From Methylicorpusculum oleiharenae (GTDB lineage: Bacteria > Pseudomonadota > Gammaproteobacteria > Methylococcales > Methylomonadaceae), in NCBI RefSeq assembly GCF_009828925.2, contig NZ_WUTY02000002.1, forward strand, positions 1 to 64,000: a DNA stretch of 64,000 nucleotides, in the 5' to 3' direction. The notes under the pieces were generated by a model, which made no database searches, was not told the origin of the DNA, and saw only the letters and a program-made list of their open reading frames with translations. Every line of letters begins with the position of its first letter. The stretch's first letter is position 1. Below are positions 26,991-56,848 of the stretch, piece by piece. A program made the position numbers and the translations under genes.

Positions 26991-27026
26991 TATGATTTCT
27001 CCAGCATCATATACATTTTTAAAAAA

Positions 27027-40262: not shown

Positions 40263-40556
40263 ATGTCTATATTAGACCTCAAAAATATCGACTTAGACAA
40301 ATTGCTATATCAACTGGATACTGCACTCAAAATTAATATCGATTCCGATCTTGAATCAAATAAGGATAAAGAGCAGATTAAAGCCATTATGTATTTGGTA
40401 CATGCGAAACTGATATTGCTACGCGCATTGAACAACAAACATTTACCCGTTCAGGACGGTGAGTTATTAGCATCTAGCAATACTATTCGTGACGCGCTTG
40501 AAAATGATCCCACTGTGATGTTTTTTAAAGATGAAGAATTTTGGGCAGAACATAGT
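40263..40556 (+). pseudogene. Unknown gene truncated by the Tn3-family transposon
   Basis: The frame reads MSILDLKNIDLDKLLYQLDT, then LVHAKLILLRALNNKHLPVQ and FFKDEEFWAEHS, where the transposon end begins. The apparent last residues (GVRQRFLHFRAIRLH) are encoded by the terminal repeat. It is an acidic helical protein of unknown family, and the original C-terminus is lost. Confidence 0.6.
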
Positions 40557-40628
40557 GGGGTACGACAACGATTCCTTCATTTTCGGGCCATAAGGTTGCA
40601 TTGATATGATTTTGGACTCATGCGACCA

Positions 40629-41537
40629 TCACCAGCTTCGTTCTGGATCGTCCACAGAAAAAATATCCGCCTCTATAAAACAATGACGCATGTCAGCTGT
40701 GTGTTCGGCTTCAGCCATTATTTCATCGTAGATAATACTGTCGAGCTCTTCATCTGAGGTATAGGGGATCGAAAGAATATATCGGCAGTTATGCTTATCC
40801 AATTTTTCCATAGCAAACTGGCTAAGAATGAATTGTTCAATTTCATTCCGTACCTTGCCTTTTCCGCGCACAAACTTACTATTGTTTTCAATCTGCAAAC
40901 ATAATTCGACTTTCATCACTTTGGTGATATTTGTGTTCGCACTATCCTCTGACTGTTGTATTTTCTGCGGTGCCTCTGCTAATTTGTCCTCTGACTGCGT
41001 ATATTTGTAATAGGTGTTGCGAGAAATACCCAGGATATCGCAAATTTCCTTAACGCTCCGACCTAGATCTTTCTTTAATGCCAGCGCGGCTTTACGTTTT
41101 TTTTCATCCACCCCTTTTGGCCTGCCACCTTTTCTGCCTCGTGCCCGTGCAGATGAAAGCCCGGCGTGGGTTCTCTCGCGGATGATGTCCCGCTCAAACT
41201 CGGCCAACGAAGCGAAAATATGAAAAATAAGCTTACCACCGGAAGTGGTTGTATCGATATTTTCTTGTAAACTTTTGAATCCGACCTCTCTGGCAATAAG
41301 GTCACGTACCGTCTCCACCAAGTGCGGAAGAGAGCGTCCCAACCGATCAAGTTTCCAAACAACTAGTGTATCTCCAGGTCGGCAGCATTGAAGCGCTTCA
41401 ATTAATCCTGGGCGTTGCGCTTTGGCGCCACTGGCCGTATCGGTAAAAATGCGCCCACATTTTGCCGCTAAGAGTGCATCTTGCTGAAGATCAAGATTTT
41501 GGTCGGCAGTTGAAACCCGGGCATAGCCAACGAACAT
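40629..41537 (-). CDS. tnpR: Tn3-type serine resolvase with C-terminal extension
   Basis: The 302-residue protein begins MFVGYARVSTADQNLDLQQD, where the Ser in ARVST is the nucleophile. The catalytic core continues with LVVWKLDRLGRSLPHLVE and LAEFERDIIRERT. A helix-turn-helix follows near 165-190 (SVKEICDILGISRNTYYKYT). Resolvases of classical Tn3 end at about 185 residues; here another 100 residues follow (NTNITKVMKVELCLQIENNS, then YDEIMAEAEHTADMRHCFIE), as in long-resolvase relatives. It resolves cointegrates at res, upstream of its start. Confidence 0.92.
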   Translation of the reverse strand: MFVGYARVSTADQNLDLQQDALLAAKCGRIFTDTASGAKAQRPGLIEALQCCRPGDTLVVWKLDRLGRSLPHLVETVRDLIAREVGFKSLQENIDTTTSGGKLIFHIFASLAEFERDIIRERTHAGLSSARARGRKGGRPKGVDEKKRKAALALKKDLGRSVKEICDILGISRNTYYKYTQSEDKLAEAPQKIQQSEDSANTNITKVMKVELCLQIENNSKFVRGKGKVRNEIEQFILSQFAMEKLDKHNCRYILSIPYTSDEELDSIIYDEIMAEAEHTADMRHCFIEADIFSVDDPERSW

Positions 41538-41559
41538 AAAAAGCGGCTCCTTTTCAACA

Positions 41560-41640
41560 GGCAGTTTGTACCATGAAACTCAACTCATATAAAAATATTG
41601 GTACGTTGATTTAGTATATGCGTTTTATGGTATAAAATTG
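41560..41640. promoter_or_regulatory. Left part of the transposon res site
   Basis: Between the resolvase start and the IS21 insertion there are TGTACCAT (about 41568-41575) and CGTTTTATGGTATA (about 41621-41634). Related boxes recur at 45077-45110 on the other side of the IS21 element. Their resemblance suggests resolvase binding subsites split by the insertion. Confidence 0.5.
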
Positions 41641-41784
41641 ATTATTAAATCGGCTTAATTTTGGCGTTTTACGCGTTTAAGTCACTGTTGTTAACGCCGA
41701 CATAAACCCGCAACTATTTGCCGCAGGATAAAATCAAAAAAATACGGCGGACGGCACATCTTCAAAGCATTATCAAACGCCCCG

Positions 41785-41976
41785 CTAAAATGGGATCTCA
41801 TCATTGAAATCGCACTCCTCATGTTCCGCCTGTTGTTCATCCTGTATTGTTTTGTACATGTCCAGGATTTCCTCACCATAACGTTGCCAAATGGCTTCTT
41901 TCAAATCATCGAGGAACTGATAGACGCAATCGGCCTCTTCCGGTGTCCAATGGGTGGTTATTTTCAGTATTTTCAT
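41785..41976 (-). CDS. Small accessory protein of the IS21 element
   Basis: The 63-residue acidic protein reads MKILKITTHWTPEEADCVYQ, then FLDDLKEAIWQRYGEEILDM and a tail DEQQAEHEECDFNDEIPF. It overlaps the end of istB by 4 bp, so it is translated with it. A small acidic helical protein after istB is seen in some IS21 relatives; its role is unknown. The overlap and normal codon pattern make it a real gene. Confidence 0.65.
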   Translation of the reverse strand: MKILKITTHWTPEEADCVYQFLDDLKEAIWQRYGEEILDMYKTIQDEQQAEHEECDFNDEIPF

Positions 41977-42731
41977 TTGGCGCCCCCTTGTTGTCTGCTG
42001 CGTCGTTCCGCCGCTTGTTCTTTGGCCTCTTTCATGCGGTAAGATTTTCCCTCGATCGCGATGATTTCACTATGATGAACCAGTCGGTCAACCAGAGAGA
42101 CGACACAAGCGGCATTGGGGAAGACGTCGTTCCATTCGGCGAACGGGCGATTGGTGGTGACCAGCGTTGAACGTTGTTCATAGCGTTGATTGACGATTTC
42201 AAACAGCAGATCCGCGTGGCGGTTGCTGTAGGAGAGATAGCCGACTTCATCGATGATTAACAAAGCCGGTTTGGCGTAGTGCTTGATTCTTCGCCGCAGG
42301 GCGTTGTCACTGTCCAGGGCGGCCAGGTCATTGAGCATGTTGGCGGCCGTTGTGAACAAGACCGTATGGCCGCGCATCACCGCTTGATAGCCGAGGTTTT
42401 GCGCCAGGGTTGATTTGCCCACGCCGTTACCGCCCAGTAGGATGAGATTATTGGCCCCGGTTAAAAAATCCAATTGCATTAACGCATGGATCGCTTTTTG
42501 ATCTATTTTGTCCGGCCACTGCCAATCAAATTCGGTTAAAGGTTTAAAGCGTCCTAGTTTGGCGTGACTTAAACGGCGCTCCAGTGAACGCTGTTTTCGC
42601 TCTTGCCGTTCCCAATTTAATACGGTTTCCAGCCAGGGATACTGTGCTTGCGTCAGTTCATGCCAATGCGCCTGCACCCCATGAAACTTGAGCTCAATCG
42701 CTTGTTGCTTGAGTTGTTCGGCATCAATCAT
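41973..42731 (-). CDS. istB: IS21 helper ATPase IstB
   Basis: The 252-residue AAA+ protein has the IstB N-terminal region (AIELKFHGVQAHWHELTQAQ), Walker A ILLGGNGVGKSTLAQNLG, Walker B PALLIIDEVGYLSYSNR, and sensor region STLVTTNRPFAEW. IstB binds ATP, bends target DNA and stimulates the IstA transposase. It overlaps the istA end by 8 bp. It looks intact, so the element may be active. Confidence 0.95.
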   Translation of the reverse strand: MIDAEQLKQQAIELKFHGVQAHWHELTQAQYPWLETVLNWERQERKQRSLERRLSHAKLGRFKPLTEFDWQWPDKIDQKAIHALMQLDFLTGANNLILLGGNGVGKSTLAQNLGYQAVMRGHTVLFTTAANMLNDLAALDSDNALRRRIKHYAKPALLIIDEVGYLSYSNRHADLLFEIVNQRYEQRSTLVTTNRPFAEWNDVFPNAACVVSLVDRLVHHSEIIAIEGKSYRMKEAKEQAAERRSRQQGGAK

Positions 42732-44340
42732 GGTTTTCCTCCTTGGTTATCGCTGTTATAGCGTTCTCCGGCTCTGGTTCTTTCTTTTGCTCATTCTTTT
42801 TCTCCTTCTCCTTCTCCTTGTCCTGCTCTGTTTCGCTGTCATTGACCGGGCCGTCCTCATGACTGGGATTGAGTTGGTCATAGTCAGCCAGGTTGACCGC
42901 TTTGATGTGGTACGGCTTGACTTTATCGGGTACCGCGACAGCCAGGGGCGGCGGTTGCCGTTTTTCATCACGCCGGCGTTCCAGGATTTGTTGCACCGCT
43001 TGCGGGTAGGGCGATTGCTGTTTGAGCGCTTCGTCGAGCGCGCTGTGCAATTCGTCCCGGCCATAGTCATCCAATAGCTGATTCAGTAAGCGAAGGGTGG
43101 TGGTTAACACATGACCCCGTTGGATGGCTTGCTGCAGGAAAAGGGGAATATGCGCGGAAGCGGCGCTTAAGCGGTCTTGCCCGCGGTGCTGCTTGGCGTT
43201 GGTTTTTTGCAGCCATAAGGCATTGATATGGCTTTCATCTTCGATTTGCCTGCCTTTATCAAAACTGCGTCGATGTTCGGCAATCACGTGTTCGCCATCT
43301 AGGATGCATAGTTGCTTAAGATCGGCGATCACCGTCAGCGGTTTTTGGACGTGCTGATGCGGAATCGAGTAATCATTCCAGTCAAAGCGGATATAAGGCG
43401 TTTTTCGGGCCGTGACCGGTTTCCTTTCACGGGTATCAAACGGGTTGTCCGGCAGACTGAGTAAACTCGGTTGCTCTTGATGAAAAGCCTCCTTCACCGT
43501 CAACTCGGTATTTTCCGGGCAGCGCCGCTCGCCGCTAACGCCTTGACACCATTGATCGGCCTGTTGATTCAGTTCTTCGAGTGTTTGAAAATGCCGCGCG
43601 GCAAAAAAATTATCCCGGATATAACGAATCGCCCGCTCCACACGGCCTTTTTCATTGCCGCGCGCGACGGCGACCGGGCGTGGCTCAAAGCGATAATGCG
43701 CGGATAAGGCCAGCAACGTGGGATGAAAACGGATGGCGTCGCCTTGGCGTTCCAGCACGGCCGACTTGAGATTGTCATAGAGCAGCACCTTGGGTAAGCC
43801 ATTCCAGGCCTCGAACGCCGCCACATGACCGCGTAAAAAGTTTTCCATTTGTTGATTGAGGTAAAACTGCAAATAGATTTGCCGCGACCAACTTAACACC
43901 ATCACAAACGCCATTAACGGTCGTTTGGCTTTGCCTATGTGAATCGAACCAAAGTGTCCCCAATCGACTTGGGCTTGTTCACCGGATAAGGTTTTTAAGC
44001 GCAAATAGGCTTCCGGCTGTTTGCGCGGGCGCAGTTGACTGATGCGCTGGCGAAACTGGCTGGGGCCACCGGGATAACCCCGTTGTTTCGCCATCTCATA
44101 CAATCTTGCGGCCGTCAGGGTCGGAAACTGCGCCAATGTCGCCATGATAAACGGCAAATACGCATCGATGATCGATGGCCGCGGTGAGCGTTCAACCTTC
44201 GGGAGGCCTGCTTGCGATAACACGCGGTCAACAACAGAATGATGGATGCCCAACTGTGTGGCAATCGTGCCGACTCGCCACTGCTCCACAAAATGATAAC
44301 GCAGTATTTTCGCTTCAATGTCTTTATTTAGGGTCATCAT
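42724..44340 (-). CDS. istA: IS21 transposase IstA
   Basis: The product is about 538 residues. The N-terminal HTH is GTIATQLGIHHSVVDRVLSQ. The rve-type DDE catalytic core carries GEQAQVDWGHFGSI (first Asp), PKVLLYDNLKSAV (second Asp) and NEKGRVERAIRYIRDNFF (Glu). The C-terminal domain is followed by a charged low-complexity tail (SETEQDKEKEKEKKNEQKK). The ATG at 44338-44340 shares a base with the stop of the upstream zinc-finger gene (TGATG), so translation is coupled. IstA cuts and joins the element ends. Confidence 0.95.
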   Translation of the reverse strand: MMTLNKDIEAKILRYHFVEQWRVGTIATQLGIHHSVVDRVLSQAGLPKVERSPRPSIIDAYLPFIMATLAQFPTLTAARLYEMAKQRGYPGGPSQFRQRISQLRPRKQPEAYLRLKTLSGEQAQVDWGHFGSIHIGKAKRPLMAFVMVLSWSRQIYLQFYLNQQMENFLRGHVAAFEAWNGLPKVLLYDNLKSAVLERQGDAIRFHPTLLALSAHYRFEPRPVAVARGNEKGRVERAIRYIRDNFFAARHFQTLEELNQQADQWCQGVSGERRCPENTELTVKEAFHQEQPSLLSLPDNPFDTRERKPVTARKTPYIRFDWNDYSIPHQHVQKPLTVIADLKQLCILDGEHVIAEHRRSFDKGRQIEDESHINALWLQKTNAKQHRGQDRLSAASAHIPLFLQQAIQRGHVLTTTLRLLNQLLDDYGRDELHSALDEALKQQSPYPQAVQQILERRRDEKRQPPPLAVAVPDKVKPYHIKAVNLADYDQLNPSHEDGPVNDSETEQDKEKEKEKKNEQKKEPEPENAITAITKEENHD

Positions 44341-44774
44341 CACCCCTCACCCGCGTAGCGGTTCCGGAATACAGGTAAAATCCGGCCGGCATGGACAAAA
44401 TCCCGGCGTAACAAAGGCGCACAAACGGCACCGCAATGGTGACAACGCAAATGACCGTCCATGAGTTCGATGGTTTCGGTTTTTTCGAGCCCGGTGCGCT
44501 TACGTTTCAGTACATCATGAGCGGTCACCTGTAGGGAACCCTGATGCGTTACTTTTTGTTTCTGTCGTTCTCGAAACCGTTGTTGACGGCTGGCATTATG
44601 GAAGCGTCCTGAGCGTGTGGACTGATATTTTTTCCCGGCGCGCCTGCGGGACTCTAAACGGGCGGACGCGGCGCATCCGCCGGTGCAATAACGCTGACCA
44701 CGATCACAACGTGAGCAGATGATGACCTGTGTATGACAACGGTGACAATAATAAAGGCGGGCGGTGCGGCACAT
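44340..44774 (-). CDS. Zinc-finger accessory protein upstream of istA
   Basis: The product is about 144 residues with paired Cys motifs: YCHRCHTQVIICSRCDRGQR, YCTGGCAASARLESRRRAG, then HLRCHHCGAVCAPL. These probably make two or three zinc fingers, and the middle is very basic (RAGKKYQSTRSGRFHNASRQ). It overlaps the istA start by one base. Such a gene is not part of the classical two-gene IS21 unit and may help DNA targeting. The ATG at 44772-44774 is preferred over a GTG two codons earlier. Confidence 0.65.
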   Translation of the reverse strand: MCRTARLYYCHRCHTQVIICSRCDRGQRYCTGGCAASARLESRRRAGKKYQSTRSGRFHNASRQQRFRERQKQKVTHQGSLQVTAHDVLKRKRTGLEKTETIELMDGHLRCHHCGAVCAPLLRRDFVHAGRILPVFRNRYAGEG

Positions 44775-45076
44775 CGACACAAAGGCCGATGAGGGCTGAA
44801 TTTATTCCTCAGATATGTCACACTGAGGATCGTGCTTCGGCACGGTTTTGGGGGTATGGCGTCAGCGTTGACCGTCAAATCTTTGTGGCGTCATACCTTC
44901 TCTCAACGACACCGCTCTTTATACCGCTGACCGTGTTGTTTTGCTTGATTATTGATGAATGGTGTTCGTGAAAAAACAGCCATCACGATTATTTCAGCAT
45001 GCTATTTAAAGCTGGGGGATAACGGGGGGATTTTACTATTCGGCAAATAACTGCGGATTTGGGCTGGTTTTTACAA

Positions 45077-45110
45077 CTGTACCATAAAAACGGTCGTTTT
45101 TATGGTACAG
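45077..45110. promoter_or_regulatory. Perfect inverted repeat, probable resolvase subsite before tnpA
   Basis: CTGTACCATAAAAACG (45077-45092) and CGTTTTTATGGTACAG (45095-45110) are perfect inverted copies separated by two bases. Similar boxes are found near 41568 and 41621 on the resolvase side. The site sits 53 bp before tnpA and marks the right part of the split res/promoter region. Confidence 0.65.
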
Positions 45111-45162
45111 GTTGTCAGCCTATTGATCTAATCACTTTTGCTTTCAATAAGGTTCTTTATCC

Positions 45163-48156
45163 TTGCCAACGATTCAAGAAACCGCATACCCGCGACTAAA
45201 AAGTCATGTTTCAGTTCGCGATTTGGCTATCATTTATACGCCTAATGTGGATGAATTATCCTTGGCTAAACAAGTAACCCGTGGGGCGGTTGCCCAGTTG
45301 GGATTCCTAGTTCTTTTGAAGATTTTTCAACGCCTAGGATATTTTGTTCCAATCAGCCAAGTACCATCGGCTATCATTGAACATATCGCCGGCGTGGCTC
45401 AGATTCAACCCGCTATCACTGAGCTGGCCGGCTATGATTCGTCTGGAACGCGCAAGCGCCATTTACAAATCATACGCCAGATACTCCATATCAATTGCTA
45501 TGATAAGGATGCCCGCCATATTCTGATGCTGGCCATGAGCCAAGCGGCCAGGACAAAAGAAGAGTTGGCTGATCTTATCAATGTCGGCATTGAAGAATTA
45601 GTGCGTAAGAAATATGAGCTTCCCGCCTTTGACACGTTGGTACGCGGAGCTCGCCATGCACGCACCATTCTCTATCGGCAGTTCTATCAGCAAGCGGATG
45701 CCAGTCTGAGCACAGAAGAAAAGAAACGCATCGAAATGCTGTTTATAGCTGAACCAGAATCGCGTTTTACACCCTGGAATACGCTCAAGCAGGAACCTGA
45801 TAGTCCAACCCTAACGAACCTCAAAGTCTGGTTAGATCGGAAGGCCTGGTTGGCCCAGTATCACATTGATCAACAAGTTCTTGCCGATATTCCTGATGTA
45901 AAAATCCAGCACTTCGCTGCGGAAGCCAGAACCTTGGATGCCGCGAGAATGTTGGAAATCGAACCCAAAAAACGCTTAACTCTGGCGGTTTCGTTGCTGA
46001 AAGTTCAGTCGTATCGAGCCCTGGATGATTTAGCAGAAATGTTCATCAAGCGCATGTCGACCATCCATCAGAAAGGCAAAGATGCGTTAGCAGATTATCA
46101 TGCACGCAACCAACAGCGTGCCGACGAATTAGTACAAACCTTACGCGATTTGGTTATTGCCTACCGCACCGAAGGATCCGCCCAGGATAAGATCACAGCA
46201 ATTGATGCCTTATTGGCAGATCAAGGTGATGTTATTCTCCAACGCTGCGATGATCATATCGCTCATGCGGGCGACAACTACTTTGTATTTCTGTGGCGCT
46301 TCTACAAGAGTCATCGCTCAACGCTTTTTCGCCTACTCAGGTGTATCACGGTGCAGACCACTACCCAGGATACAACATTCGTGGCGGCGCTGCATTTTCT
46401 GCTAGAGAATGAACACAAGACCGGTGAATGGCTGACAACACCAAAATCCCCCTGTCTTGATCTCTCTTGGATGCCGGAAGCCTGGTGGCGTTTGGTTACA
46501 GAGTTGCACAATCATGATGAAACACCAAAACGTTTGCACCGTCGCCATTTCGAACTATGCGTTTTTTCGCAGCTGATGATGGAGCTAAAGTCCGGTGATT
46601 TGTGTATCCTTGGAAGCAATCATTACGCCGACTATCGTGACCAGCTCATCTCCTGGGAGGAGTATCACCGCGATATCGCCGCCTATGGTGAAATGGTCGG
46701 ATTGCCCACCGAAGGCGCTGCTTTCGTAGTGCACATGCAAGCACGATTAACTGAAGTTGCTCAAAAAACTGACCACGCTTTCCCCGATAATACGGATTTA
46801 CGTATTGAGAATGGCGAACCTATTTTACGCCGACCCACGAAAGCAACGACGCCCGCTGGATTACGTAATTTCGAACAACTCGTGGCCGACCGGTTGGAAC
46901 CCACGCATTTATTGGATGTGTTACGTGACACCGAACACTGGTTGAACTGGACGCGATTTTTTGGCCCCATTTCCGGCCACGACACCAAGCTCGACAACCC
47001 TGTTTCACGTTACCTGACCACTACATTCTGCTATGGTTGCCACCTTGGGCCGGCACAAGCAGCGCGTTCACTGGGTAACGTCGACAGACGGCAACTTTCC
47101 TGGATTCATTGGCGGCATATAACAGAGGGAAGCCTTGAAAAAGCGATTCGGGAAATTATCAATGCCTATCACCGTTTCGACCTGCCCAAACACTGGGGGA
47201 CTGGCAAAAATGCCTCCGTCGATGGCACCATGTGGGATCTGTATGAGCAGAATCTATTATCCGAGTACCACATTCGCTATGGCGGATACGGTGGAATTGG
47301 CTATTATCACGTCTCCGACACCTATATAGCGTTGTTCTCAAACTTCATTCCCTGTGGGGTCTGGGAAGCGGTCTACCTGCTTGATGGGTTGCTCAAAAAC
47401 TTTTCCGACATCCAACCCGATACGATTCATGGCGATACCCAGGCGCAAAGTACACCGGTTTTTGCCCTGGCGTCGCTTCTGGGGATTTCCTTGATGCCCA
47501 GAATCCGTAATTGGAAAGATTTAAAAATGTATCGTCCTGACAAAAACAGCACTTACAAGCATATCGATACGCTGTTTTCGGATACCATTGACTGGAAACT
47601 GATCCAGACTCATTTGCCGGATATGTTACGGGTAATTCTTTCTATTAAAGCTGGCAGGATTACTGCGTCAACATTGTTGCGAAAATTGGGAACCTACAGC
47701 AAAAAGAATAGGCTATATCAGGCGTTTCGTGAGCTTGGGCGTGTTATCCGAACCGAATTTTTGTTGAAATACATCAGTGACTCTGAATTGCGTGTACTTA
47801 TCCAGGCAGCGACTAACAAAAGCGAGGCATTCAATGGATTTTCGCAGTGGCTAGCTTTCGGAGGTGATGGCACAATATCGACAAATGACCGGGATGAGCA
47901 GCGCAAAATCATTAAGTACAACCATCTCGTGGCTAACTGCCTAATTTTCTACAATGTATTCTCTATCAGTCGAGTATTGCAAGATTTACAGCGTGAAAAC
48001 TATCCGCTGGAACCTTGGCACATAGCCGCACTGAGCCCATATTTGACTTGGCATATCAATCGTTTTGGTCGGTACGATTTGGATATGGAAAAACAGCCAC
48101 CAGAATTGCTCTACGACCTATGGACACATGAGAGTCAAATCCTTATGGCCCAATAA
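45163..48156 (+). CDS. tnpA: Tn3-family transposase
   Basis: The 997-residue protein shows the Tn3 TnpA layout: a DNA-binding N-terminal half (GYFVPISQVPSAIIEHIAGV), and the DDE C-terminal domain with KNASVDGTMWDLYEQNLLSE (first Asp), GVWEAVYLLDGLL, DTIHGDTQAQSTPVFALASL (second Asp), and IKYNHLVANCLIFYNVFSIS. The final residues KYNHLVAN...ISRVL are typical of the family. The start is a TTG at 45163 (MPTIQETAYPRLK), with AAGG about 10 bases upstream; no nearby ATG fits. It appears complete, so the transposon may be mobile. Confidence 0.95.
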   Translation: MPTIQETAYPRLKSHVSVRDLAIIYTPNVDELSLAKQVTRGAVAQLGFLVLLKIFQRLGYFVPISQVPSAIIEHIAGVAQIQPAITELAGYDSSGTRKRHLQIIRQILHINCYDKDARHILMLAMSQAARTKEELADLINVGIEELVRKKYELPAFDTLVRGARHARTILYRQFYQQADASLSTEEKKRIEMLFIAEPESRFTPWNTLKQEPDSPTLTNLKVWLDRKAWLAQYHIDQQVLADIPDVKIQHFAAEARTLDAARMLEIEPKKRLTLAVSLLKVQSYRALDDLAEMFIKRMSTIHQKGKDALADYHARNQQRADELVQTLRDLVIAYRTEGSAQDKITAIDALLADQGDVILQRCDDHIAHAGDNYFVFLWRFYKSHRSTLFRLLRCITVQTTTQDTTFVAALHFLLENEHKTGEWLTTPKSPCLDLSWMPEAWWRLVTELHNHDETPKRLHRRHFELCVFSQLMMELKSGDLCILGSNHYADYRDQLISWEEYHRDIAAYGEMVGLPTEGAAFVVHMQARLTEVAQKTDHAFPDNTDLRIENGEPILRRPTKATTPAGLRNFEQLVADRLEPTHLLDVLRDTEHWLNWTRFFGPISGHDTKLDNPVSRYLTTTFCYGCHLGPAQAARSLGNVDRRQLSWIHWRHITEGSLEKAIREIINAYHRFDLPKHWGTGKNASVDGTMWDLYEQNLLSEYHIRYGGYGGIGYYHVSDTYIALFSNFIPCGVWEAVYLLDGLLKNFSDIQPDTIHGDTQAQSTPVFALASLLGISLMPRIRNWKDLKMYRPDKNSTYKHIDTLFSDTIDWKLIQTHLPDMLRVILSIKAGRITASTLLRKLGTYSKKNRLYQAFRELGRVIRTEFLLKYISDSELRVLIQAATNKSEAFNGFSQWLAFGGDGTISTNDRDEQRKIIKYNHLVANCLIFYNVFSISRVLQDLQRENYPLEPWHIAALSPYLTWHINRFGRYDLDMEKQPPELLYDLWTHESQILMAQ

Positions 48157-51100
48157 TGAAGGAATCGTTGTCGTACCCCCGCAACGTCCCCCGACGCTAG
48201 ATAAATCGTTTCTACGCTGATTTGTTTGCCCGGATAATACTGCTGGGCACCTCGCCGCAGCAGAGCGTAAAGAGGCTGATCGAGTTCCGATTTCGTTTTC
48301 TTGCCGGTGCGGTTCCGCTGCGCCCGCACAACGCCTTCCGGAGTAATTATGACCCGATCAGGAGTAACGGATACGACCGACGTCCCGAGTGTGACTTTCC
48401 ATTCCTGGCGTTCATATGCTCCGACTTCCCCCGTGATCGCAGCCGCCATTGCCCGTACCATTCTTTCAGCCACGTCCCGGTAATAAGCTTCGAATCCGTG
48501 GCCCACTGGTCCTCGCGCCGCCCACTCCGTTTGAAGACGTTCTAACCCAGCCGCAAGGTCCACATTCCGTTCCGCTTGCCGTTCGCTTTCAAGCCAGCCG
48601 AAGGTGGCATAAACGCAACGGTGAAATTGCACATACGGCGTCTCGTTGCGCCCCCCGCGCAATCCTTCAACAATTTCGTATCGATATCGCGCCGGGCAAT
48701 TCATGTAAATCGATAATTCGCGCTCTGGATAGGTATCCCGTCTCGCCTGGGGAATTTTCATCAAAGGTGGCGCAAAGGATTTTCCTGAGCCACTGAACCT
48801 GACGTTCGGCAGACGAACAATGTCGAGAAATTTTGAGGCGCTCGCATTTTGCTTGGCGTAGCGCTCTGCGCGGCTCAGCGAGAGATAGTCCCGCGCCCGC
48901 GATAATGCGACGAAAAATAGGCACTCCTCTTCTGCGTCGTGATCACCTGAAAGAGACAAGAGTTCCGTCAATGTATCTGGAGGTGGACAACGAACTCCTT
49001 GCCTAGTCGTTGGCATATAGCGTGTAGCAAGTGCAGGTAAATGCACCGCTCCAAATTCAAGGCCTTTGCTTCCATGAATCGTCAGGACGCGCACAGCGTC
49101 AATATCGGAGGCTTCCGACGAAACAGCACGAAATACACTGTCTTGATTGAGCGCCTCCAGGCGCCGGATGCGGGCTAGAAACCGTTTGCGATCATGTACT
49201 CCAGCCGTATATTGCTCACCGCATACTTTTAGCAATTGATAGATTGCGATCAGTTTCTGACGCGATGCCGCATCATTGGCTTCAAGGAGCGGCCTGAGGT
49301 ACGAACTTCTTTCAAATAGCCACGTCGTCAGGTAAATCCACGGCGGAGCCTGCTCTAATCCTTTGAGTTGATCGCCGAGACGCGTAAGCCCAACCCGCCC
49401 TTCGGTGCTAATGTCTGAAATCTCGTTCACACGGCTTAGGGCCTCAATGATTGAGATATTGGATGCTTCGGCCCAATGGCGGCATTTGATGGCGTCTTCT
49501 CGAGCGACTGCATATTCCGGGAGTTCGGCAATCCGTGCTAGACCGACATTCCCGTACTCACTGTCAAGGGCGATGAGGGAAAGCAAATCCCTGATTTCTT
49601 TACGCTCGAAAAGGTCGCCCAAGTATAGCAACGGAACGCCTAGATGTTCTAGAGCTACCGTGAGTCGCGCAAGCGTCAAGTGCGTTCTTGCGAGAATAAC
49701 CTGATCGCTATATGTAATGCCAAGTTCGCGAAACTGCTCAATCTGACTTGCGATATATTCCGCCTCCGCCGCGACCGTTGGTGCAACCGCCATCGTTACA
49801 GAGCCGCCAACATCACGAAATGCCTCCCATTTGCCACGCTGTGAGCCATCGCCCATCGAAGACGAGAAGGTCTCGAAAGCGCGGACGATTGGGGCGTGTG
49901 AGCGGTAGTTTGTAGAAAGGGAATGAGATTTTCCAGCAAACTCATCCGGGAAGCGCGTCACATTGGATGGCTCTGCGCCCCGAAAGCGGTAAATTGATTG
50001 GCGCTGGTCTGCCACAACCCATGGCACCGCGCCCTGTTTACAGATTTCCCGCAGCATCCGTGCGCTTGCAAGGTTAACGTCTTGGTATTCGTCGACATGA
50101 ATGACCTTGAACTGTGAGATGTAAGCTTGAACATCTTTGTTAGATTCGATGAGTTTGCTTGCAAGTAATACTAGGTCGCCAAAATCAACGGCATCAGCAT
50201 CCTTAAGCGCTTCTTCATAGACACGATAGATGTGAGCGATTTCCAGCGCCTTTTCGGCGGCTGCAATGGCGTCTTCGTTTCCGGAGGCCAGAGCAGAGGC
50301 ATAGGACGTATTCGCCTCCCTTCGATACTCTTCAGGTGAAATCAGCTCATCTTTGCACCGAGAAATCGCACGAAGAACATGCGTAAGCTCGTAAGCTGGT
50401 TCATACAGATTTTGAAAATGATTGAGGGACAACTTCTCCAAATTAACCTCGAGAAGCGCCAGCGCACTCGCTTCATCGATAATCTTCACCTGCGGTGAGC
50501 GCCCAATACCCGAGGGCCAGCGCGTGATGAGTTCCAGCCCAAAAGAATGAAAGGTTCCGACCCACATCTCCACGGATGCTTTTGCATCCATTGCGGACAA
50601 GCGTTCGTGCATCTCTTCCGCGGCCTTGTTGGAGAATGTCAAGGCAAGAATACTTGCGGGTGCTATACCCGACGCAAGGCAGTGCTTGATTCTGTGCACA
50701 AGTGTACGGGTCTTACCAGTTCCTGGGCCGGCGTCAACTAGTAGAGCCCCAGCGTCCCATGTTGCTGCGGTCTTTTGGCTGGAATCGAGCTCAATCTTTG
50801 CGCCCGGCTCCTGCTTAGCGGGCTCCCTGAGCGGGGGCAAGAGTAAAGTGCGGATAATTTGGTTTAATACCAGTCTGACTGGCAACTTGAGGTCGTTTGC
50901 GATTTGAGTCGGACGGCATCCATGAATAACGTATTGCTCACGCGCCCAGTCGGCGGGGCAGAGAAATTCCCCTGCAAAGACGTCGGCTTGCACTTCCTGC
51001 CGCTGTCGGGAAGAGTAGCCCTCGACTTTTCCTGCCGCACCTTCGACAGGGTCTCCACCCAATCCTGCATACGAAATGGTCACCTCATGCGATGGATCAG

Positions 51101-51377
51101 TATGCAGTTCGTAGTGCCCTATTTCGTGCGCGATAACTACCTGCTCTTCTTCCGGGTCCTGGCCCGAGGCGACATTGACAACTTGGGCGGTCCGTTCAAG
51201 TGAGCCAAACACCTCCTCTCCAAATCGTGTGCCGGGCGCATAGTAGCTTTTTTCAAGATCGAGAATTTGAAGTGCAGCATCGATAAGTGCATTCGCGCGG
51301 CGGTCGCCATTCGTCGCTGTAAGGGCTTTCGTATGGAGTTGACGCGCGTTGCGTCTTATCTCGATCCATGTATCCAT
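48135..51377 (-). CDS. ImmA metallopeptidase-UvrD helicase-PD-(D/E)XK nuclease fusion, 3' end cut by transposon
   Basis: The 1080-residue protein joins three parts. Residues 1-190 are an ImmA/IrrE zinc peptidase with HEIGHYELH (His84, His88) and a downstream acidic helix QEVQADVFAGEFL. Residues 195-860 are a UvrD/Rep-type superfamily-1 helicase: Walker A DAGPGTGKT (215-223), GTFHSFGLE, DEYQD (429-433), TIHGSKGLEF and FVALSRARDYL. Residues 890-1065 are a RecB/PDDEXK-like nuclease (YMNCPARYRYEIVEG with the start of a nuclease fold, then PLYALLRRGAQQYYPGK). The last 15 or so codons are transposon terminal repeat (GVRQRFLHYWAIRI), so the natural C-terminus is missing. It is the third gene of an operon with an HTH-like and a sigma-like gene. 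Confidence 0.88.
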   Translation of the reverse strand: MDTWIEIRRNARQLHTKALTATNGDRRANALIDAALQILDLEKSYYAPGTRFGEEVFGSLERTAQVVNVASGQDPEEEQVVIAHEIGHYELHTDPSHEVTISYAGLGGDPVEGAAGKVEGYSSRQRQEVQADVFAGEFLCPADWAREQYVIHGCRPTQIANDLKLPVRLVLNQIIRTLLLPPLREPAKQEPGAKIELDSSQKTAATWDAGALLVDAGPGTGKTRTLVHRIKHCLASGIAPASILALTFSNKAAEEMHERLSAMDAKASVEMWVGTFHSFGLELITRWPSGIGRSPQVKIIDEASALALLEVNLEKLSLNHFQNLYEPAYELTHVLRAISRCKDELISPEEYRREANTSYASALASGNEDAIAAAEKALEIAHIYRVYEEALKDADAVDFGDLVLLASKLIESNKDVQAYISQFKVIHVDEYQDVNLASARMLREICKQGAVPWVVADQRQSIYRFRGAEPSNVTRFPDEFAGKSHSLSTNYRSHAPIVRAFETFSSSMGDGSQRGKWEAFRDVGGSVTMAVAPTVAAEAEYIASQIEQFRELGITYSDQVILARTHLTLARLTVALEHLGVPLLYLGDLFERKEIRDLLSLIALDSEYGNVGLARIAELPEYAVAREDAIKCRHWAEASNISIIEALSRVNEISDISTEGRVGLTRLGDQLKGLEQAPPWIYLTTWLFERSSYLRPLLEANDAASRQKLIAIYQLLKVCGEQYTAGVHDRKRFLARIRRLEALNQDSVFRAVSSEASDIDAVRVLTIHGSKGLEFGAVHLPALATRYMPTTRQGVRCPPPDTLTELLSLSGDHDAEEECLFFVALSRARDYLSLSRAERYAKQNASASKFLDIVRLPNVRFSGSGKSFAPPLMKIPQARRDTYPERELSIYMNCPARYRYEIVEGLRGGRNETPYVQFHRCVYATFGWLESERQAERNVDLAAGLERLQTEWAARGPVGHGFEAYYRDVAERMVRAMAAAITGEVGAYERQEWKVTLGTSVVSVTPDRVIITPEGVVRAQRNRTGKKTKSELDQPLYALLRRGAQQYYPGKQISVETIYLASGDVAGVRQRFLHYWAIRI

Positions 51378-51381
51378 TCAG

Positions 51382-51993
51382 TCAGTCCTCGTCAAGCCAG
51401 TACCGAATTTCCTCGTTTGACATACCACTTGTCCTGATAACTTCTGCAAATGGCCGAGCGATGACCGCAGAAATATTTCTTGCTTTGGCCATGCCTAGTT
51501 TTGGCTGACCAAGTGCATATTGGAGCAGATCACGAACTTTATCGGCGGGAATTGCGAGGGTACGTTGTAACGCTTCAGTCATCCTCTGACTAAGCGGAGG
51601 CGAAACTCGTCCGCCAAAAAGATCGGCAATGATGCTTCGACGAATGTCGATTTCATTAGCTAAAGAGGGAATCGTTTTCCCGCGTGCCTCCAATACCGCT
51701 TCAAATGACTGATACGTAACCGATTCAGAGGCGGCGTTTTCAAGGTCAGCGGAATAAAGTGCGCTTAAGGCGCGGCTATAACCCTGCCGGAACACAGTAT
51801 CAGGCACTTCCATCGGATTTTCTTCTTCGTCAGCCATATCCCGCGTAATCCCAGCATGAATACGAATGTCTTCCGCAAATTGCGGATATCTGCGTACCCA
51901 TGTCGAAATGTCATCGGCAGTCGGCCGAGAACATTTCTGATGAAACGCGAACAACACGTCGTCGCGGTCGGCATTTACATTGTTGTAGGTCAT
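51382..51993 (-). CDS. HTH-like regulator between sigma-like and helicase genes
   Basis: The product is about 203 residues. The ATG at 51991-51993 overlaps the sigma-like stop (ATGA); an upstream frame is longer but lies inside that gene. The N-terminal part is ADDISTWVRRYPQFAEDIRI, and the middle has an XRE-type pattern FEAVLEARGKTIPSLANEID, IRRSIIADLFGGRVSPPLS. The end is helical (GMAKARNISAVIARPFAEVI). It ends 4 bp before the helicase fusion. HTH proteins beside ImmA peptidases are usually their substrates or partners, so it may be a repressor cleaved by the peptidase domain; this is inference. Confidence 0.65.
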   Translation of the reverse strand: MTYNNVNADRDDVLFAFHQKCSRPTADDISTWVRRYPQFAEDIRIHAGITRDMADEEENPMEVPDTVFRQGYSRALSALYSADLENAASESVTYQSFEAVLEARGKTIPSLANEIDIRRSIIADLFGGRVSPPLSQRMTEALQRTLAIPADKVRDLLQYALGQPKLGMAKARNISAVIARPFAEVIRTSGMSNEEIRYWLDED

Positions 51994-52844
51994 GATGATC
52001 TCCTTACTTGCTCTCTCAGTGTTTCCTGGACCTCCTTTACCCACGCCCTGGCCGTACTCTCATCAACCCCCATAGCCTCTGCGATGGAATGGGTCGTCGC
52101 GATTCTTTTTGTCTTGTACGGGACGTCATCCATAAAAAGGCGAAACGCTAGGCGTTTTCGTTCATCCGGAACATGCTTTTTCAACAGGCGATCGACATCC
52201 ATCTGATCGATAAAGTCGTTGACCCCGTCAAACATCGATGGGTCGTAAGATGTTTGTTCCTGTAACGTCTCGTCATCGTAATTAACGACTGGTTCATGGA
52301 ACGATACAATCCGTTCGCCATCCAATTCGATGAGGTCTTCCTCGTCTTCTATCAACTGGTCGTCTGCCCCAAGGCTTTTCGGCTCGTCGTTTCGTGTGGA
52401 AGCCTTAATTTTCGCCTTGTCTGCCTTCTCCGCGAGGATATCTTCTTCGGTTCTGCGCAGTTGGACTTCCTTCGCGAGGGCATCTTTGATCCTAAAGCTG
52501 AGTCGGGCGTGAAATGCTTCCCGGAACCCTGCACCGTCCGACGAATTCGGTTTCGCGGCTGCCGTGAAAACGGATTCATGTGTTCGCCAAATTATGTCCC
52601 ATCCCTCGTTTAGATGATAGCGGCTGACTTTCCGACGGAGTTCTGCAATGACAAGATCGCTAAGTTGCTTGGCTAAGGCATTCCGCACCTGCCCGTTCGC
52701 CTTAGCGCCCAATCCCTGGAGGGCGCAGAACAACACCTGTACGCCGTATTCGAGGTGAAGATTCTCCGCGATGGCACATTGCCAGCCGTTGTGGTCATTT
52801 GAGTCGGGCGGAGGTGGAACAGTTTGTTTCAGGTTTTTATTCAT
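51990..52844 (-). CDS. Sigma-70-like (region 4-type HTH) protein
   Basis: The product is about 284 residues. The first half reads VRNALAKQLSDLVIAELRRK, then WDIIWRTHESVFTAAAKP and GAGFREAFHARLSFRIKDAL, resembling region 2-like helices of divergent sigma factors. The acidic middle (DDQLIEDEEDLIELDGERIV) is followed by KKHVPDERKRLAFRLFMDDV and a region 4-like HTH THSIAEAMGVDESTARAWVK. The ATG at 52842-52844 is preferred because AAAGGATG lies upstream; the previous ATG is 21 bp earlier. It overlaps the next gene by 4 bp. It probably controls its own operon. Confidence 0.65.
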   Translation of the reverse strand: MNKNLKQTVPPPPDSNDHNGWQCAIAENLHLEYGVQVLFCALQGLGAKANGQVRNALAKQLSDLVIAELRRKVSRYHLNEGWDIIWRTHESVFTAAAKPNSSDGAGFREAFHARLSFRIKDALAKEVQLRRTEEDILAEKADKAKIKASTRNDEPKSLGADDQLIEDEEDLIELDGERIVSFHEPVVNYDDETLQEQTSYDPSMFDGVNDFIDQMDVDRLLKKHVPDERKRLAFRLFMDDVPYKTKRIATTHSIAEAMGVDESTARAWVKEVQETLREQVRRSS

Positions 52845-52951
52845 GTAACATCCTTTTCTTCTCATTACATATAGGTAAGCGACTCAAGCGCTAAAAATGC
52901 GGGGAAGGCTACTAAAATTTTTTGAGTCATGTGCAATAGGGTGACCAGGAT

Positions 52952-53971
52952 TCACAAAAGGACAATGTTTACTTGTTTTCCAAAAACCTCGTGCACCGCT
53001 GGAATCAAATGGTCATGATGGCTCAGGAAGATGACTTGGGTTTGTTCGGATAATGCCTTAAGTGCTTCAAACCCCGCTTTTGATCGGACATCATCGTAGT
53101 TGATAAATAGATCGTCGGCGACGAATGGCAACGGCATGGCTTGTTCCAGGTGCATTTCCAAGGCCGCCAGTCGAAGTGCCAAATAAAGCTGATCTCGTGT
53201 GCCGTCACTCATGCCCGAAATACCAACCAACTTGCCATCGGCGCGCAACCCCTCCAACACCATCGGCTCCCGTTCAAAATCCACCATCAGCTTACTAAAC
53301 GATCCGGATGTTAATGTCGAAAAGATCGCACCTGCTCGTTGCAACAGTGGCCCCTGCTTCTCTTCTCGATAGCGGTCAATTGACCAACGGAGCAAGCGGC
53401 CGGCGGTGAAAACTTTCACATAGCGTTCTGCCGCATCTGCCATTTGCGCAAGCGCCTCTTGGCGCTGAGCCTCAGCTTGTGTCGCCGCGTCTGAACCACC
53501 GATTTCGGACAAAACCCGCAAGGCGTTTGCATGGTCAGCCGAAAGCATCGTTTGCTGCTGCACGGCATCAGCAATTTCATCGTTGATGTGTGCGAGCTCA
53601 GCGGCCAGATGAAGCAGATTAGCCGCATCAATCTCCGCTTCGATTTGCAGCCGCGTTAGGCCATCTCCCCCATTGAGAAGTGTCGCCTTAGTCTCTGCAA
53701 GCTCGGCATTGAGACGACGTTGCTCGTCAGATCGAGCAATGGCTGCATTCAACAAAGTCGTGGTGTCGACGCCTGCTTTTTCCATTAACGGTTTCAAACT
53801 CGCCGTGGCGGTTTGACTGGATTCTTTGGCTTCCAATACCTGGCTGTTTGGGGTAGGACAAGCAGTCGTGTCACCAGCCGCCATTTTGATCTCTCGAAAG
53901 TACGGTCGCTGGGCGGAGTGGCTATATAAACCGGAACAGAACATGTGACCCCAGCTCATGGATGTTGTCAT
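52952..53971 (-). pseudogene. YhaN/SMC-like ATPase, 5'-truncated
   Basis: The native part begins near residue 45 and contains a coiled coil (EQRRLNAELAETKATLLNGG, AEAQRQEALAQMADAAERYV). Then come the C-terminal ATPase signature GISGMSDGTRDQLYLALRLA, Walker B PFVADDLFINYDD and the switch His in IFLSHHDHLIP. These are the C-terminal motifs of YhaN-type (SbcC/RecN-like) AAA ATPases, which are usually 1000 residues or more. The N-terminal Walker A half is missing, and the first 40 codons look random. It lies upstream of the sigma-like operon and may once have belonged to it. Confidence 0.75.
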
Positions 53972-54828: not shown

Positions 54829-55475
54829 GTAAGTATCCCCCGGCAAAGCCGGGGGCTTTATGTTGTGAACCGCTCAAAGCGGTAAATAGGGTCGCTAACG
54901 CGGCCCTTTCATAATGGCCGCCCATAGGCGGCGACTCACTGCCAAAGGTTCATTTGTTCAATTCGTTGGTCTTCCTGTTCTTGATGCCGGATATACTCCC
55001 GAATCATCGTTTCATCCCGACCTACCACACAAAATAACCTCTCGCCCAGAAATGTTGCCTTACAAAATTCCGTTTCTGTTCACCATAAACCCGCGCCAAA
55101 TGAATCGCGCTCTTGCCCTTGATGTGACCAATCACTTGCGACACCGCATATTTCGGCGGGATCGAAATCAGCATGTGCACATGATCCGGCATCAAGTGAC
55201 CTTCCAGTATCCGGCTCTCTTTCTGGCCCGCAAGCCTCCGAAACACCTCCCCTAAATGTTTTCGCAATTCCTTGTACAGCGTTCGACGCCGGCACTTTGG
55301 TATAAATACCACATGATATTTGCACTCCCATTTCGAGTGGCTTAAGCTTTCGTTCTCGTCCATCAGGTTCTCCTTTTTCGCGTTTGCTTGGCGGCTCACG
55401 CGTTCGAGTGTCCTGATGGACTCCTCTAAATATCAAACTTTTGCTGTCTCCCCGGCAGAGCCGGGGGATTTCTCA
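54829..55475. mobile_element. IS200/IS605-type element
   Basis: The element is bounded by hairpins typical of the family: CCCCCGGC-AAA-GCCGGGGG at 54837-54855 and CCCCGGC-AGA-GCCGGGG at 55450-55466. A Y1-type transposase gene lies between them on the minus strand. There are no terminal inverted repeats in the usual sense, as expected. The right end lies at or next to the 3' end of the CDF transporter gene (stop 55473). Confidence 0.75.
54936..55363 (-). pseudogene. tnpA: IS200-type Y1 transposase, frameshifted near the end
   Basis: From the ATG at 55361-55363 the product reads MDENESLSHSKWECKYHVVF, IPKCRRRTLYKELRKHLGEV, then LMPDHVHMLISIPPKYAVSQ with the HUH motif and HFWARGYFVW before a stop at 55022. 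The expected continuation (VGRDETMIREYIRHQEQEDQ) is present in another frame down to 54936. The shift of one or two bases at the TTTTGTGTGG run removes the catalytic Tyr helix end, so the copy is probably inactive. Confidence 0.8.
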
Positions 55476-56075
55476 TTTTTGGTTAATTGAACCACGAAGA
55501 ACTCTTATTGACGACAAAAGTAGAAGTGTGGCCAATAAGGCTGCGACGATTAGGTCCGGCCAATGATTATCCAATGCCCAAACGCCTATTGCGGCTATAA
55601 TGACCGACAAATTGGACGCAATGTCATTGCGCGAACACTCATAAACAGAACTCATGTTGATATCTTCGTGACGATGTCGCCAAAGCAGATAAAGGCAAAG
55701 TCCATTCGCGGCTAAACCGGCCAAGCTGAATATACCCATGACTTGATACGACGGTAGTTCCGGGTTTGCCAGACGATTGACAATTTGTGCTACCACACCC
55801 GCCGATGCTGCAAAAATTAATCCGCCTTTGAACAGTGCAACGCGAGCTTTGGTTTGGGAATTGCGGCTGACGGCAAACAGGCTCAGGCCATAAGTCATTG
55901 CATCGCCCAAATTATCCAGGGAATCGGATAGCAAAGCGGTGGACTTGCCATACAGCGCCGCAAATACAATGACTGCGAACATCACCGCGTTGATCAACAA
56001 TACCTTGATTAAGGTACCGCGCTGCCTCTCCAGAAGTGCTTCCGCCGCACAGTCGTTTTCGCAACAGGATGCCAT
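55473..56075 (-). CDS. Cation diffusion facilitator-family transporter (short form)
   Basis: The 200-residue membrane protein has six hydrophobic segments (LIKVLLINAVMFAVIVFAAL through PDLIVAALLATLLLLSSIRV). The conserved metal-site regions are LLSDSLDNLGDAMTYG (HxxxD-like DNLGD) and CSRNDIASNLSVI. A Cys-rich start MASCCENDCAAEALL may bind metal. The usual cytoplasmic domain of CDF proteins is missing, as in short members linked to heavy-metal operons. It is divergent from the copper/silver pump genes and probably exports a divalent cation. Its 3' end abuts an IS200-type element. Confidence 0.85.
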   Translation of the reverse strand: MASCCENDCAAEALLERQRGTLIKVLLINAVMFAVIVFAALYGKSTALLSDSLDNLGDAMTYGLSLFAVSRNSQTKARVALFKGGLIFAASAGVVAQIVNRLANPELPSYQVMGIFSLAGLAANGLCLYLLWRHRHEDINMSSVYECSRNDIASNLSVIIAAIGVWALDNHWPDLIVAALLATLLLLSSIRVLRGSINQK

Positions 56076-56204
56076 GGGCTAATCTCGAAACATTGAAATT
56101 AGATTAAATGATGGCATAAACTTCATTCGTTTATCAAACCCGAATGCAACGTAAATCCGAAACATCGAATGGCAACAGGCTTTAGGAAATATTACAGTTT
56201 TTCA

Positions 56205-56223
56205 ACCTTGCCAGTGGTAAGTT
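56205..56223. promoter_or_regulatory. Possible MerR/CueR-type operator
   Basis: ACCTTGCCAGTGGTAAGTT is an imperfect 19-bp dyad of the ACCTT(C/G)CC...GG.AAG(G)T type bound by copper-responsive MerR regulators. It lies between the CDF gene and the efflux operon. No cueR-like gene is in the window and the promoter boxes are unclear. Confidence 0.35.
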
Positions 56224-56358
56224 CTCAAATTCGGTAATAACCGGTAAATTAGCAGACCATCAGGGATTTAAATTTCAAAAGTGTTTGTTTTCTTAGCAAA
56301 TTAGGTATAGGCTTAAAAGAAGGATCATTTCGCTACTATAGAATCTAAGATATCCAAA

Positions 56359-56712
56359 ATGTTCAGCCGCAGGCTAGTCGTATTGTTAATGCTCATCATG
56401 GCAGTCATGCCTGTAAGTGTGACGTATGCGCATTACTCCGGCAACGAATTATTTTCTACAGTGCATTCCATTTCCAGTGATGATTTGGCGACTGACAAGA
56501 ACATATCAAACGTCGGACAAGACCATCATTGCCATCCCAGTAAATATCATCCTTCTACTTGCAACTTTCATGTTTGCGTCGATTGTGCGCTTGCTTCGTC
56601 TTTCATATTCCTTTCATTGCAGCGCGTAACTAACTACGTCGCGTTTGCAAAGCCGGAATTCCTTTCCCTCCATCTCCCGCCTAACACAAAGCCACCTACA
56701 GCGACCCTTTAA
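56359..56712 (+). CDS. Small exported His/Cys-rich protein of the metal-efflux locus
   Basis: The 117-residue product has a signal peptide (MFSRRLVVLLMLIMAVMPVS, cleavage near TYAH). The metal-site-like segment is VGQDHHCHPSKYHPSTCNFH-VCVDC, with four His and four Cys in about 25 residues. A hydrophobic stretch ALASSFIFLSL follows. Similar small proteins occur in front of CzcCBA/CusCBA operons; they may carry copper or silver in the periplasm. It lies 136 bp before the outer-membrane factor gene, in the same direction. Confidence 0.7.
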   Translation: MFSRRLVVLLMLIMAVMPVSVTYAHYSGNELFSTVHSISSDDLATDKNISNVGQDHHCHPSKYHPSTCNFHVCVDCALASSFIFLSLQRVTNYVAFAKPEFLSLHLPPNTKPPTATL

Positions 56713-56848
56713 GCGTTTTAGAACGGCCTTCCAACACCTGGTTTATAAGGCCTTCAAGGCAATCGCGGTTCAGGTTTTCCAACGCGCTATCGCTGATTAG
56801 TTGGATCGCATTGATTGTCGTCGCCAATATGACGTTTTGAGGATCATT

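Follow-up and report, generated by a model that had tools for sequence, protein, structure and literature searches.

The window analyzed here is a 64,000-nucleotide stretch of the Methylicorpusculum oleiharenae genome (contig NZ_WUTY02000002.1, positions 1 to 64,000), and the system in question is a set of three adjacent minus-strand genes within it, referred to below as the trio (Table 1). Gene 1 encodes a sigma-factor-like protein, gene 2 a small protein with a predicted XRE-type helix-turn-helix (HTH), and gene 3 a large protein, here called the fusion, that joins an M78 peptidase, a UvrD helicase, and a degenerate PD-(D/E)XK nuclease fold. In relatives, the trio adjoins an operon for ubiquitin-like conjugation and shares a promoter-like motif with it. 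Thus, it is better read as a control module than as the self-contained system proposed in a preliminary description of this DNA, and the view of the trio as a complete system was rejected on account of the partner operon present in relatives. The reading that we favor, with a probability of about 0.5, is that the trio forms the control half of a Bub/Bil-related ubiquitin-like conjugation unit and acts as a switch composed of a sensor-protease, an HTH protein, and a sigma-like factor. In its own genome, the trio is cut off from the conjugation half, with a transposon end at the break.

Table 1. Positions of the trio, its upstream motif, and the adjoining transposon in the window.
Feature	Position	Strand	Remarks
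Promoter-like motif, clade variant CCGCATTTTT-N10-TCGCT	52878..52902	-	33 bases before the gene 1 start
Gene 1, sigma-factor-like	51990..52844	-	284 amino acids (aa) from ATG 52844; open frame; TIGR02937 match below cut-off
Gene 2, small protein, predicted XRE-type HTH	51382..51993	-	203 aa from ATG 51993; open frame
Gene 3, whole open frame	51377-48135	-	begins four bases past gene 2
Gene 3, native part, residues 1-1066 (M78 peptidase - UvrD - degenerate PD-(D/E)XK)	48180..51377	-	Pfam domains
Gene 3, last 14 codons and stop, from the transposon end	48135..48179	-	inverted repeat ends at 48179
Tn3-family transposon	40557..48179	.	inverted repeat pair at 40557 and 48179; DDE_Tnp_Tn3 E 5e-147
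tnpA of the Tn3-family transposon	45163-48156		DDE_Tnp_Tn3 match
Resolvase-like gene in the transposon	40629-41537		named from translation

The three genes were said to overlap or nearly touch, and they do: all are open on the minus strand, the stop codon of gene 1 and the ATG of gene 2 overlap as ATGA, and a gap of four bases separates gene 2 from gene 3. Longer frames are available to the first two genes, from an in-frame ATG at 52865 for gene 1 (291 aa) and from a GTG at 52044 for gene 2. The sigma-like label given to gene 1 finds support among its homologues, 14 of 17 of which, among those aligned, match the sigma70-ECF family TIGR02937 at E ≤ 0.05 (best 5e-12); the lower score of the window's own copy is weighed further below. 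The HTH-like label given to gene 2 stands for the predicted structure and is weak at the level of sequence. When gene 2 was aligned with 18 relatives, each encoded directly upstream of a fusion gene, HTH_19 was matched by 2/19 (best E 0.046) and HTH_26 by 1/19 (E 5e-5). Its AlphaFold2 model, with a mean predicted local distance difference test score (pLDDT) of 72.7, contains an XRE-type HTH according to Foldseek; the many XRE folds matched include SinR, DdrO, and the N-terminal domain of CapH (7t5u; probability 1.00, E 0.14, root-mean-square deviation 1.7), with all E-values at 0.14 or worse. Neither gene 1 nor gene 2 was matched by the PADLOC models.

The fusion was described as a zinc peptidase, an SF1 helicase, and a RecB-like nuclease in one chain. 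Pfam places a Peptidase_M78 domain at residues 63-154 (E 7e-9) and a UvrD domain at residues 198-480 (E 2e-62), followed by UvrD C-terminal domains; a PcrA model covers residues 197-852, and the core is an SF1A helicase. PDDEXK_1 is matched over residues 888-1039 with 21.6 bits, just below the Pfam cut-off of 22, and the fold itself is recognized in 18 of 19 fusion sequences. The architecture is therefore as claimed, except that the catalytic motif of the nuclease is degenerate throughout the family. The HExxH motif, E128, Walker A (G221-K222-T223), and Walker B (D429-E430) are invariant in 19/19, and a motif I-type histidine is conserved in 18/19 and C894 in 19/19. The acid of motif III, however, is absent in every sequence (R, T, S, C, or F stands there instead), and the motif III lysine is kept in one sequence and missing in 18; the motif II Asp is kept in 15/19. 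A C-terminal CxxC-x5-C is present in 18/18 intact homologues, whereas the window copy lacks it, and the fusion family presumably carries an iron–sulfur (Fe-S) cluster. The names of the nuclease motifs and the Fe-S reading of the conserved cysteines follow what we take to hold for the family at large. Because HExxH is kept while the motif III acid and, in all sequences except one, the lysine are lost, a cutting enzyme is unlikely, and a DNA-binding fold on a motor that bears a live peptidase is the likelier reading of these residues.

Known helicase-nucleases offer a useful comparison. AddB combines a PD-(D/E)XK fold with an Fe-S cysteine set. The fusion shares the SF1A core with GajB and with RecB/AddAB-type helicase-nucleases, and a C-terminal PD-(D/E)XK fold with RecB and AddB. 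Unlike them, it has an N-terminal M78 head and the degenerate motif III, and it neighbors ubiquitin-like genes rather than RecC or GajA.

Relatives were collected with a tblastn search of the fusion against a plasmid collection. At E ≤ 1e-100, it returned 87 records, and coverage reached 80% or more in 68. Among the matches listed, the nearest plasmid relatives are on two R. phaseoli plasmids (55%); three genome-contig relatives (L009-L011) are at 54-58%. We opened 28 plasmid regions, picked for diversity and not at random, of which 18 contain a fusion and ten do not. Together with four genome loci read by open reading frame (ORF; L009-L012), the 18 annotated regions make up 22 case loci. The preliminary description had looked to intact homologues for conserved co-occurrence and order, and both are found: by profile search, gene 1-like and gene 2-like proteins precede the fusion in 22/22 case loci, most of which also supplied rows to the gene 1 and gene 2 profiles. 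An IS256 interrupts gene 1 of L102, and the gene 1 match in L117 is weak (E 7e-5). The pairing of the peptidase with an adjoining HTH-like protein is thus supported in intact relatives. Outside the plasmids, a set of 61 related genomes yielded one other fusion (L159), with sigma-like, gene 2-like, and multiubiquitin neighbors, and a gene 2 search of 274 genomes of the class returned the own genome and three weak matches (E 1.3e-4 to 2.7e-4). Of 37 IMG/VR loci, only L122, cut by a contig end, matches the peptidase end of the fusion, while the other 36 match helicase parts.

On the far side of the fusion lies the partner operon. An E1 gene stands 0.98-1.76 kb downstream of the tblastn match in 58 of 60 records, among the matches listed; the count covers 60 of the 87 records, 27 lying outside it, scores side and distance rather than E1 strand, and includes two records counted across the circular record start. 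Acinetobacter contributes 25 of the 60, for the most part plasmids that are nearly identical; with these left out, the count is 33/35. The exceptions are Robbsia L104, where the E1 gene is divergent, and P. koreensis L103, where a multiubiquitin gene is found 6.4 kb further on, behind inserted sequence. In keeping with this, ubiquitin-like genes follow the fusion in 20/22 case loci, with the same two loci divergent and displaced, respectively. Partner-gene profiles match 22/22 case loci and 0/76 control loci with other UvrD helicases; seven of the case loci are in no partner profile (L009-L012, L092, L103, and L104). The partner operons come in several types: two small proteins (one DUF7665), JAB, and a ThiF-type E1 in the L089 type; multiubiquitin, E1, and DUF6527 in the L094 type; and multiubiquitin, a small protein, and E1 in the L090 type. 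L089 itself is the intact unit on the R. phaseoli plasmid pRphaN831c, from a plant symbiont. A JAB or DUF6527 gene is present in most, and was not found by profiles in L012, L090, and L103. At least some of these operons are, judging by their matches to solved Bub and Bil proteins, relatives of Bub and Bil: in the PDB, Citrobacter BubCD (9ea4) is matched by the E1 of L090 (E 9e-25) and, weakly, by that of L094 (E 6e-4), and the L094 multiubiquitin protein matches 8u38 (Ubl-BilA) and 9d5b. The E1 of L091 had no match in the PDB.

These neighborhoods bear on the proposal that DNA unwinding and cutting make the trio itself an anti-phage or anti-plasmid effector, whose fusion would unwind and cut invading DNA and merely lie near ubiquitin-like operons in defense islands. 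The RecB/AddB-like order of domains, the matches of the motor to the PADLOC helicase models RTasHel and GajB, and the many relatives on plasmids beside defense- or toxin-antitoxin-looking genes would all suit such an effector. A free-standing effector would not, however, be expected to keep a fixed single type of partner operon or to share a motif with it, and its nuclease lacks the catalytic residues family-wide. We therefore rejected the nuclease effector and regard an effector role of the trio in general as improbable.

In the IrrE/PprI-DdrO and ImmA-ImmR systems, a peptidase cleaves an XRE-family regulator after DNA damage, and CapP is likewise an ImmA/IrrE-type peptidase. The trio resembles the former systems in pairing a peptidase with a putative XRE-family regulator; IrrE/PprI and ImmA are free-standing, with no motor domain, sigma-like gene, or ubiquitin-like operon. 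CapH and CapP are an HTH repressor and a peptidase that control CBASS (cyclic-oligonucleotide-based anti-phage signaling systems), Bub, and other operons on DNA damage, according to the part of PMC13373217 covered; the same part links 219 of 544 Bub operons to CapW or CapH + CapP and 59 to CapK + CapS. Similarly, as far as the portion of PMC4963859 used here goes, 70% of bacterial multiubiquitin proteins adjoin potential toxin-antitoxin loci with a COG2856/DUF955 protein, read there as toxin-antitoxin pairs. Like CapH and CapP, the trio sets a peptidase with an intact HExxH and a predicted HTH partner beside a ubiquitin-like/E1 operon, and the gene 2 model resembles the N-terminal fold of CapH. 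The trio differs in that its peptidase shares a chain with a UvrD motor and a degenerate nuclease fold rather than being a separate protein of a two-gene set, that a third, sigma-like gene stands ahead in 22/22 case loci (split by an insertion sequence in L102), and that the shared motif is bipartite and non-palindromic. The partner operons hold the Multi_ubiq, ThiF-type E1, and JAB or DUF6527 genes of Bub, Bil, and multiubiquitin operons; the window differs from those operons, as partly seen in PMC1779556 and PMC4963859, in having the control half only. The fusion is not mentioned in the parts of two of these papers that were covered: 'helicase' and 'imma' are absent from both PMC13373217 and PMC1779556, and 'uvrd' and 'sigma factor' from the latter. 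A literature search found no description of the trio, or of a fusion next to ubiquitin-like genes; the main Bub papers (Chambers 2024, Gong 2025, and Ye 2026), which lay outside the search, may describe it.

What stands in the place of the trio when it is missing was read from ten E1 operons, hand-picked from the E1 listings, with no profile match to genes 1-3 in the stretches covered. Five of the ten (L116, L120, L162, L163, and L166) have an annotated HTH + ImmA/IrrE pair next to the ubiquitin-like gene. Of the other five, L161 shows a lone HTH gene and L164 two genes without names, and nothing is annotated there in L118, L119, and L165; for L118, profiles found an E1 and no ubiquitin-like gene, and the first gene of the operon was used instead. 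Because the pair holds this place in half of the trio-free operons, the trio occupies the position of a regulator beside the ubiquitin-like operon. As a side observation, the Mesorhizobium plasmid pMSNZP2077NSa carries both types of operon, one with the fusion (L106) and one with HTH + ImmA (L166), and the Acinetobacter johnsonii plasmid pXBB1-8 (NZ_CP010358.1) has two E1 genes.

The near-constant adjacency to ubiquitin-like and E1 genes, together with the HExxH intact in 19/19, could also be taken to mean that the fusion belongs to the conjugation machinery, with its M78 head processing ubiquitin-like precursors or conjugates and its motor bringing the head to DNA-bound targets. Such a role is improbable in our estimate. 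A JAB or DUF6527 protein is already encoded in most operons, M78 proteins pair with an HTH gene in five trio-free operons, and the link through the promoter-like motif would be left unexplained.

This link rests on a motif model trained solely on 20 gaps, each of which separates a fusion gene from the first ubiquitin-like gene. The motif, TTTCCGGT-N15/16-CGATTA, consists of two different half-elements 15-16 bp apart and is non-palindromic. In the training gaps, its distance to the start codon is 39-64 bp, and 17/20 of these gaps score at least 16 bits. Outside the training set, L103 and L159 carry it at 21.5 bits, 6 bp past the helicase stop, while none of the ten trio-free operons does (best score 9.8 bits). 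The motif is shared with gene 1: in the gene 1 region, defined as 170 bp upstream plus the gene and likewise outside training, it reaches at least 16 bits in 14/21 loci, against an expectation of 0.4 derived from windows of equal length in those loci. When only the 170 bp upstream are considered, 8/22 stretches beat dinucleotide shuffles at p ≤ 0.05. Matches of at least 14 bits occur 0.57 times per 10 kb of strand in control loci, and also elsewhere in the case loci and the window, so that a lone match means little.

Loci of the multiubiquitin clade carry a second site within the coding sequence of gene 1, close to the 3' end, where conservation of the DNA exceeds that of the protein. Across 9/9 genes and 223 codon columns, the third base is invariant only at the start codon and at four codons of the inner site, and at three of those four codons the residue itself varies (R, Y, A, G, T, L, D; A, S, T; and Y, F). 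In five of the nine loci (L094, L106, L108, L109, and L159), the inner site and the one preceding the ubiquitin-like genes agree in every base of their two blocks, for instance TTACCGAC/CGATTA in L094 and TTTCCGGT/CGATTG in L159. A single base distinguishes the two sites in L093 and L103, and more than one in L115 and L114.

The window and its nearest relatives follow a clade variant of the motif, roughly CC[GC][GC]-A/T run-N10-TCGCT. This pattern has one occurrence in the 64-kb window, before gene 1, and the control loci, at 3.0 million strand-bases, have one as well. It also precedes gene 1 in L009 and L011 and the ubiquitin-like genes in L089, L010, and L011, with no site before gene 1 of L089 or L010. 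Two further observations concern the upstream stretches. In L106 (3466-6196) and L109 (3510-6196), the sigma-like gene continues an operon-like series of DUF6088 and AbiEii-type genes, which may be why these loci have no motif just before gene 1. In Robbsia, where the multiubiquitin and sigma-like genes diverge, we noticed by eye a palindrome, TTTAGAGT..ACTCTAAA, in the gap between them (L104:6435-6583) in place of the bipartite motif.

The gene 2 protein might read the shared motif instead of the sigma-like protein, as in a repressor circuit of the CapH + CapP kind with the sigma-like protein as a co-regulator. The XRE fold of gene 2, with structural matches that include CapH, SinR, and DdrO, is compatible with this, as is the presence of HTH + ImmA pairs, in the place of the trio and with no sigma-like gene, in 5/10 trio-free operons. 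The form of the motif speaks against it: the two half-elements are unlike, spaced and positioned as a -35/-10 pair would be, and do not make a palindrome. The five HTH + ImmA operons also lack the motif, although another repressor would read another site. On balance, we consider this circuit unlikely, and gene 1 probably the factor that reads the motif.

We therefore return to the reading of the trio as the control half, and it is very probable that the trio controls the ubiquitin-like operon. In the mechanism that we propose, the fusion would be a DNA-translocating sensor, with a UvrD motor, a non-cutting nuclease-fold domain of the Fe-S type, and an M78 peptidase head. On meeting abnormal DNA, such as single-stranded DNA or ends arising from damage or infection, its peptidase would cleave the gene 2 HTH protein, presumably its substrate and an anti-sigma factor or repressor, which in uncleaved form would keep the sigma-like factor, or its promoters, silent. 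The freed gene 1 factor would then start transcription at the motif before its own cassette, or at the one within gene 1, which precedes gene 2 and the fusion, and would likewise switch on the ubiquitin-like/E1/JAB or DUF6527 operon through its upstream motif. By analogy with the systems above, DNA is a reasonably likely signal, and cleavage of gene 2 by the M78 head is slightly favored as the trigger. The entire chain, in which a DNA motor that bears a peptidase and an inactive Fe-S nuclease fold senses abnormal DNA, cuts its HTH partner, and thereby releases a dedicated sigma factor for ubiquitin-like conjugation, with a second promoter in the codons of the sigma gene in the multiubiquitin clade, is a tentative proposal to which we give somewhat less than even odds. 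The damage-regulated immunity suggested in the preliminary description finds support as a likely frame in the analogy with CapH + CapP, and the trio unit may by the same analogy act against phage; in the part of PMC13373217 covered, Bub operons are stated not to have been shown to protect against phage.

Several results weigh against the favored reading. Gene 1 of the window scores 24 bits against TIGR02937, where the curated cut-off is 42.9, and a PDB search with its structure model (pLDDT 71.5) turned up no sigma factor (best E 2.4). The general motif is missing from three of the 20 ubiquitin-like gaps (L089, L011, and L102), and 7/21 gene 1 regions have no site of at least 16 bits, including L089, L010, and L011, which are three of the four relatives nearest the window. 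The upstream stretches of 14/22 loci, the window included, are not above dinucleotide shuffles; these tests used annotated gene 1 starts, profiles shifted the start upstream in some loci, L093 and L115 among them, and the results for these loci and for L102, all negative, may be misplaced through a shifted start or the split gene 1. In the upstream region of the window, the general model gives 3.0 bits (p 0.55), which is chance level, and the window site rests on the clade-variant pattern, which was written after the sites had been inspected. Moreover, the motif training loci are related to the test loci, so that the loci are not independent, and in 4/9 multiubiquitin-clade loci the inner-site variant differs from the one before the ubiquitin-like genes. 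Finally, the own genome yielded no relative of the R. phaseoli E1 and, the window included, no Multi_ubiq match, both in searches run without a positive control, and no DUF7665; the system thus cannot work there as described. Seven ThiF-fold places exist in that genome, none of them within the window, and the possibility that the ubiquitin-like half resides elsewhere in it was discarded after the Multi_ubiq, ThiF, E1, and DUF7665 searches, for which controls were weak or lacking.

An intact window copy was ruled out by the end of a Tn3-family transposon inside gene 3: residues 1067-1080 are transposon-derived and replace about 50 native residues, including the three conserved cysteines. Across the transposon, which also contains an IS21-like istAB pair (named from translations), an ORF at 40263-40604 ends in nearly the same residues, and both flanking ORFs thus read into the inverted repeat. 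The five bases at the two transposon ends differ (ATAGT and CGCAA), and hence a simple insertion that duplicated its target does not account for the arrangement. What the window retains is a control half that is truncated and orphaned, with no ubiquitin-like operon. Directly upstream of the trio lies a fragment of an SMC/RecN-like ATPase (52952-53971, minus strand; SMC_N E 8e-5, below cut-off). Exonuclease and SMC/YhaN/AAA genes stand beside the trio and ubiquitin-like unit in L090, L091, L102, L105, and L108, and since several relatives carry SMC/YhaN/AAA genes there, the fragment may be another remnant of the same island.

Other features of the window are named from translations unless noted. 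The window is probably a plasmid backbone, given the ParA/ParB-like genes and the replication initiator within 25030-31044; the stretch 29743-31044 matches plasmid replication initiation proteins. An XRE-HTH and ImmA-like gene with a HELGH motif overlaps a small PIN-type-toxin-like gene at 18916-20645 (plus strand). RND-type heavy-metal efflux genes and a cation transporter-like gene occupy 55022-62676, with an IS200/IS605-like transposase at 55022-55399.

The trio bears on why bacteria keep operons for ubiquitin-like conjugation and on what turns them on. The motif predicts where transcription of these operons starts, and the trio predicts the inducing signal, namely DNA damage or foreign DNA. 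The fusion hints that a helicase-nuclease fold has been converted from cutting to sensing. If the entire chain proposed above holds, the trio would represent a sigma-factor-based, proteolysis-triggered switch for ubiquitin-like tagging in bacteria.

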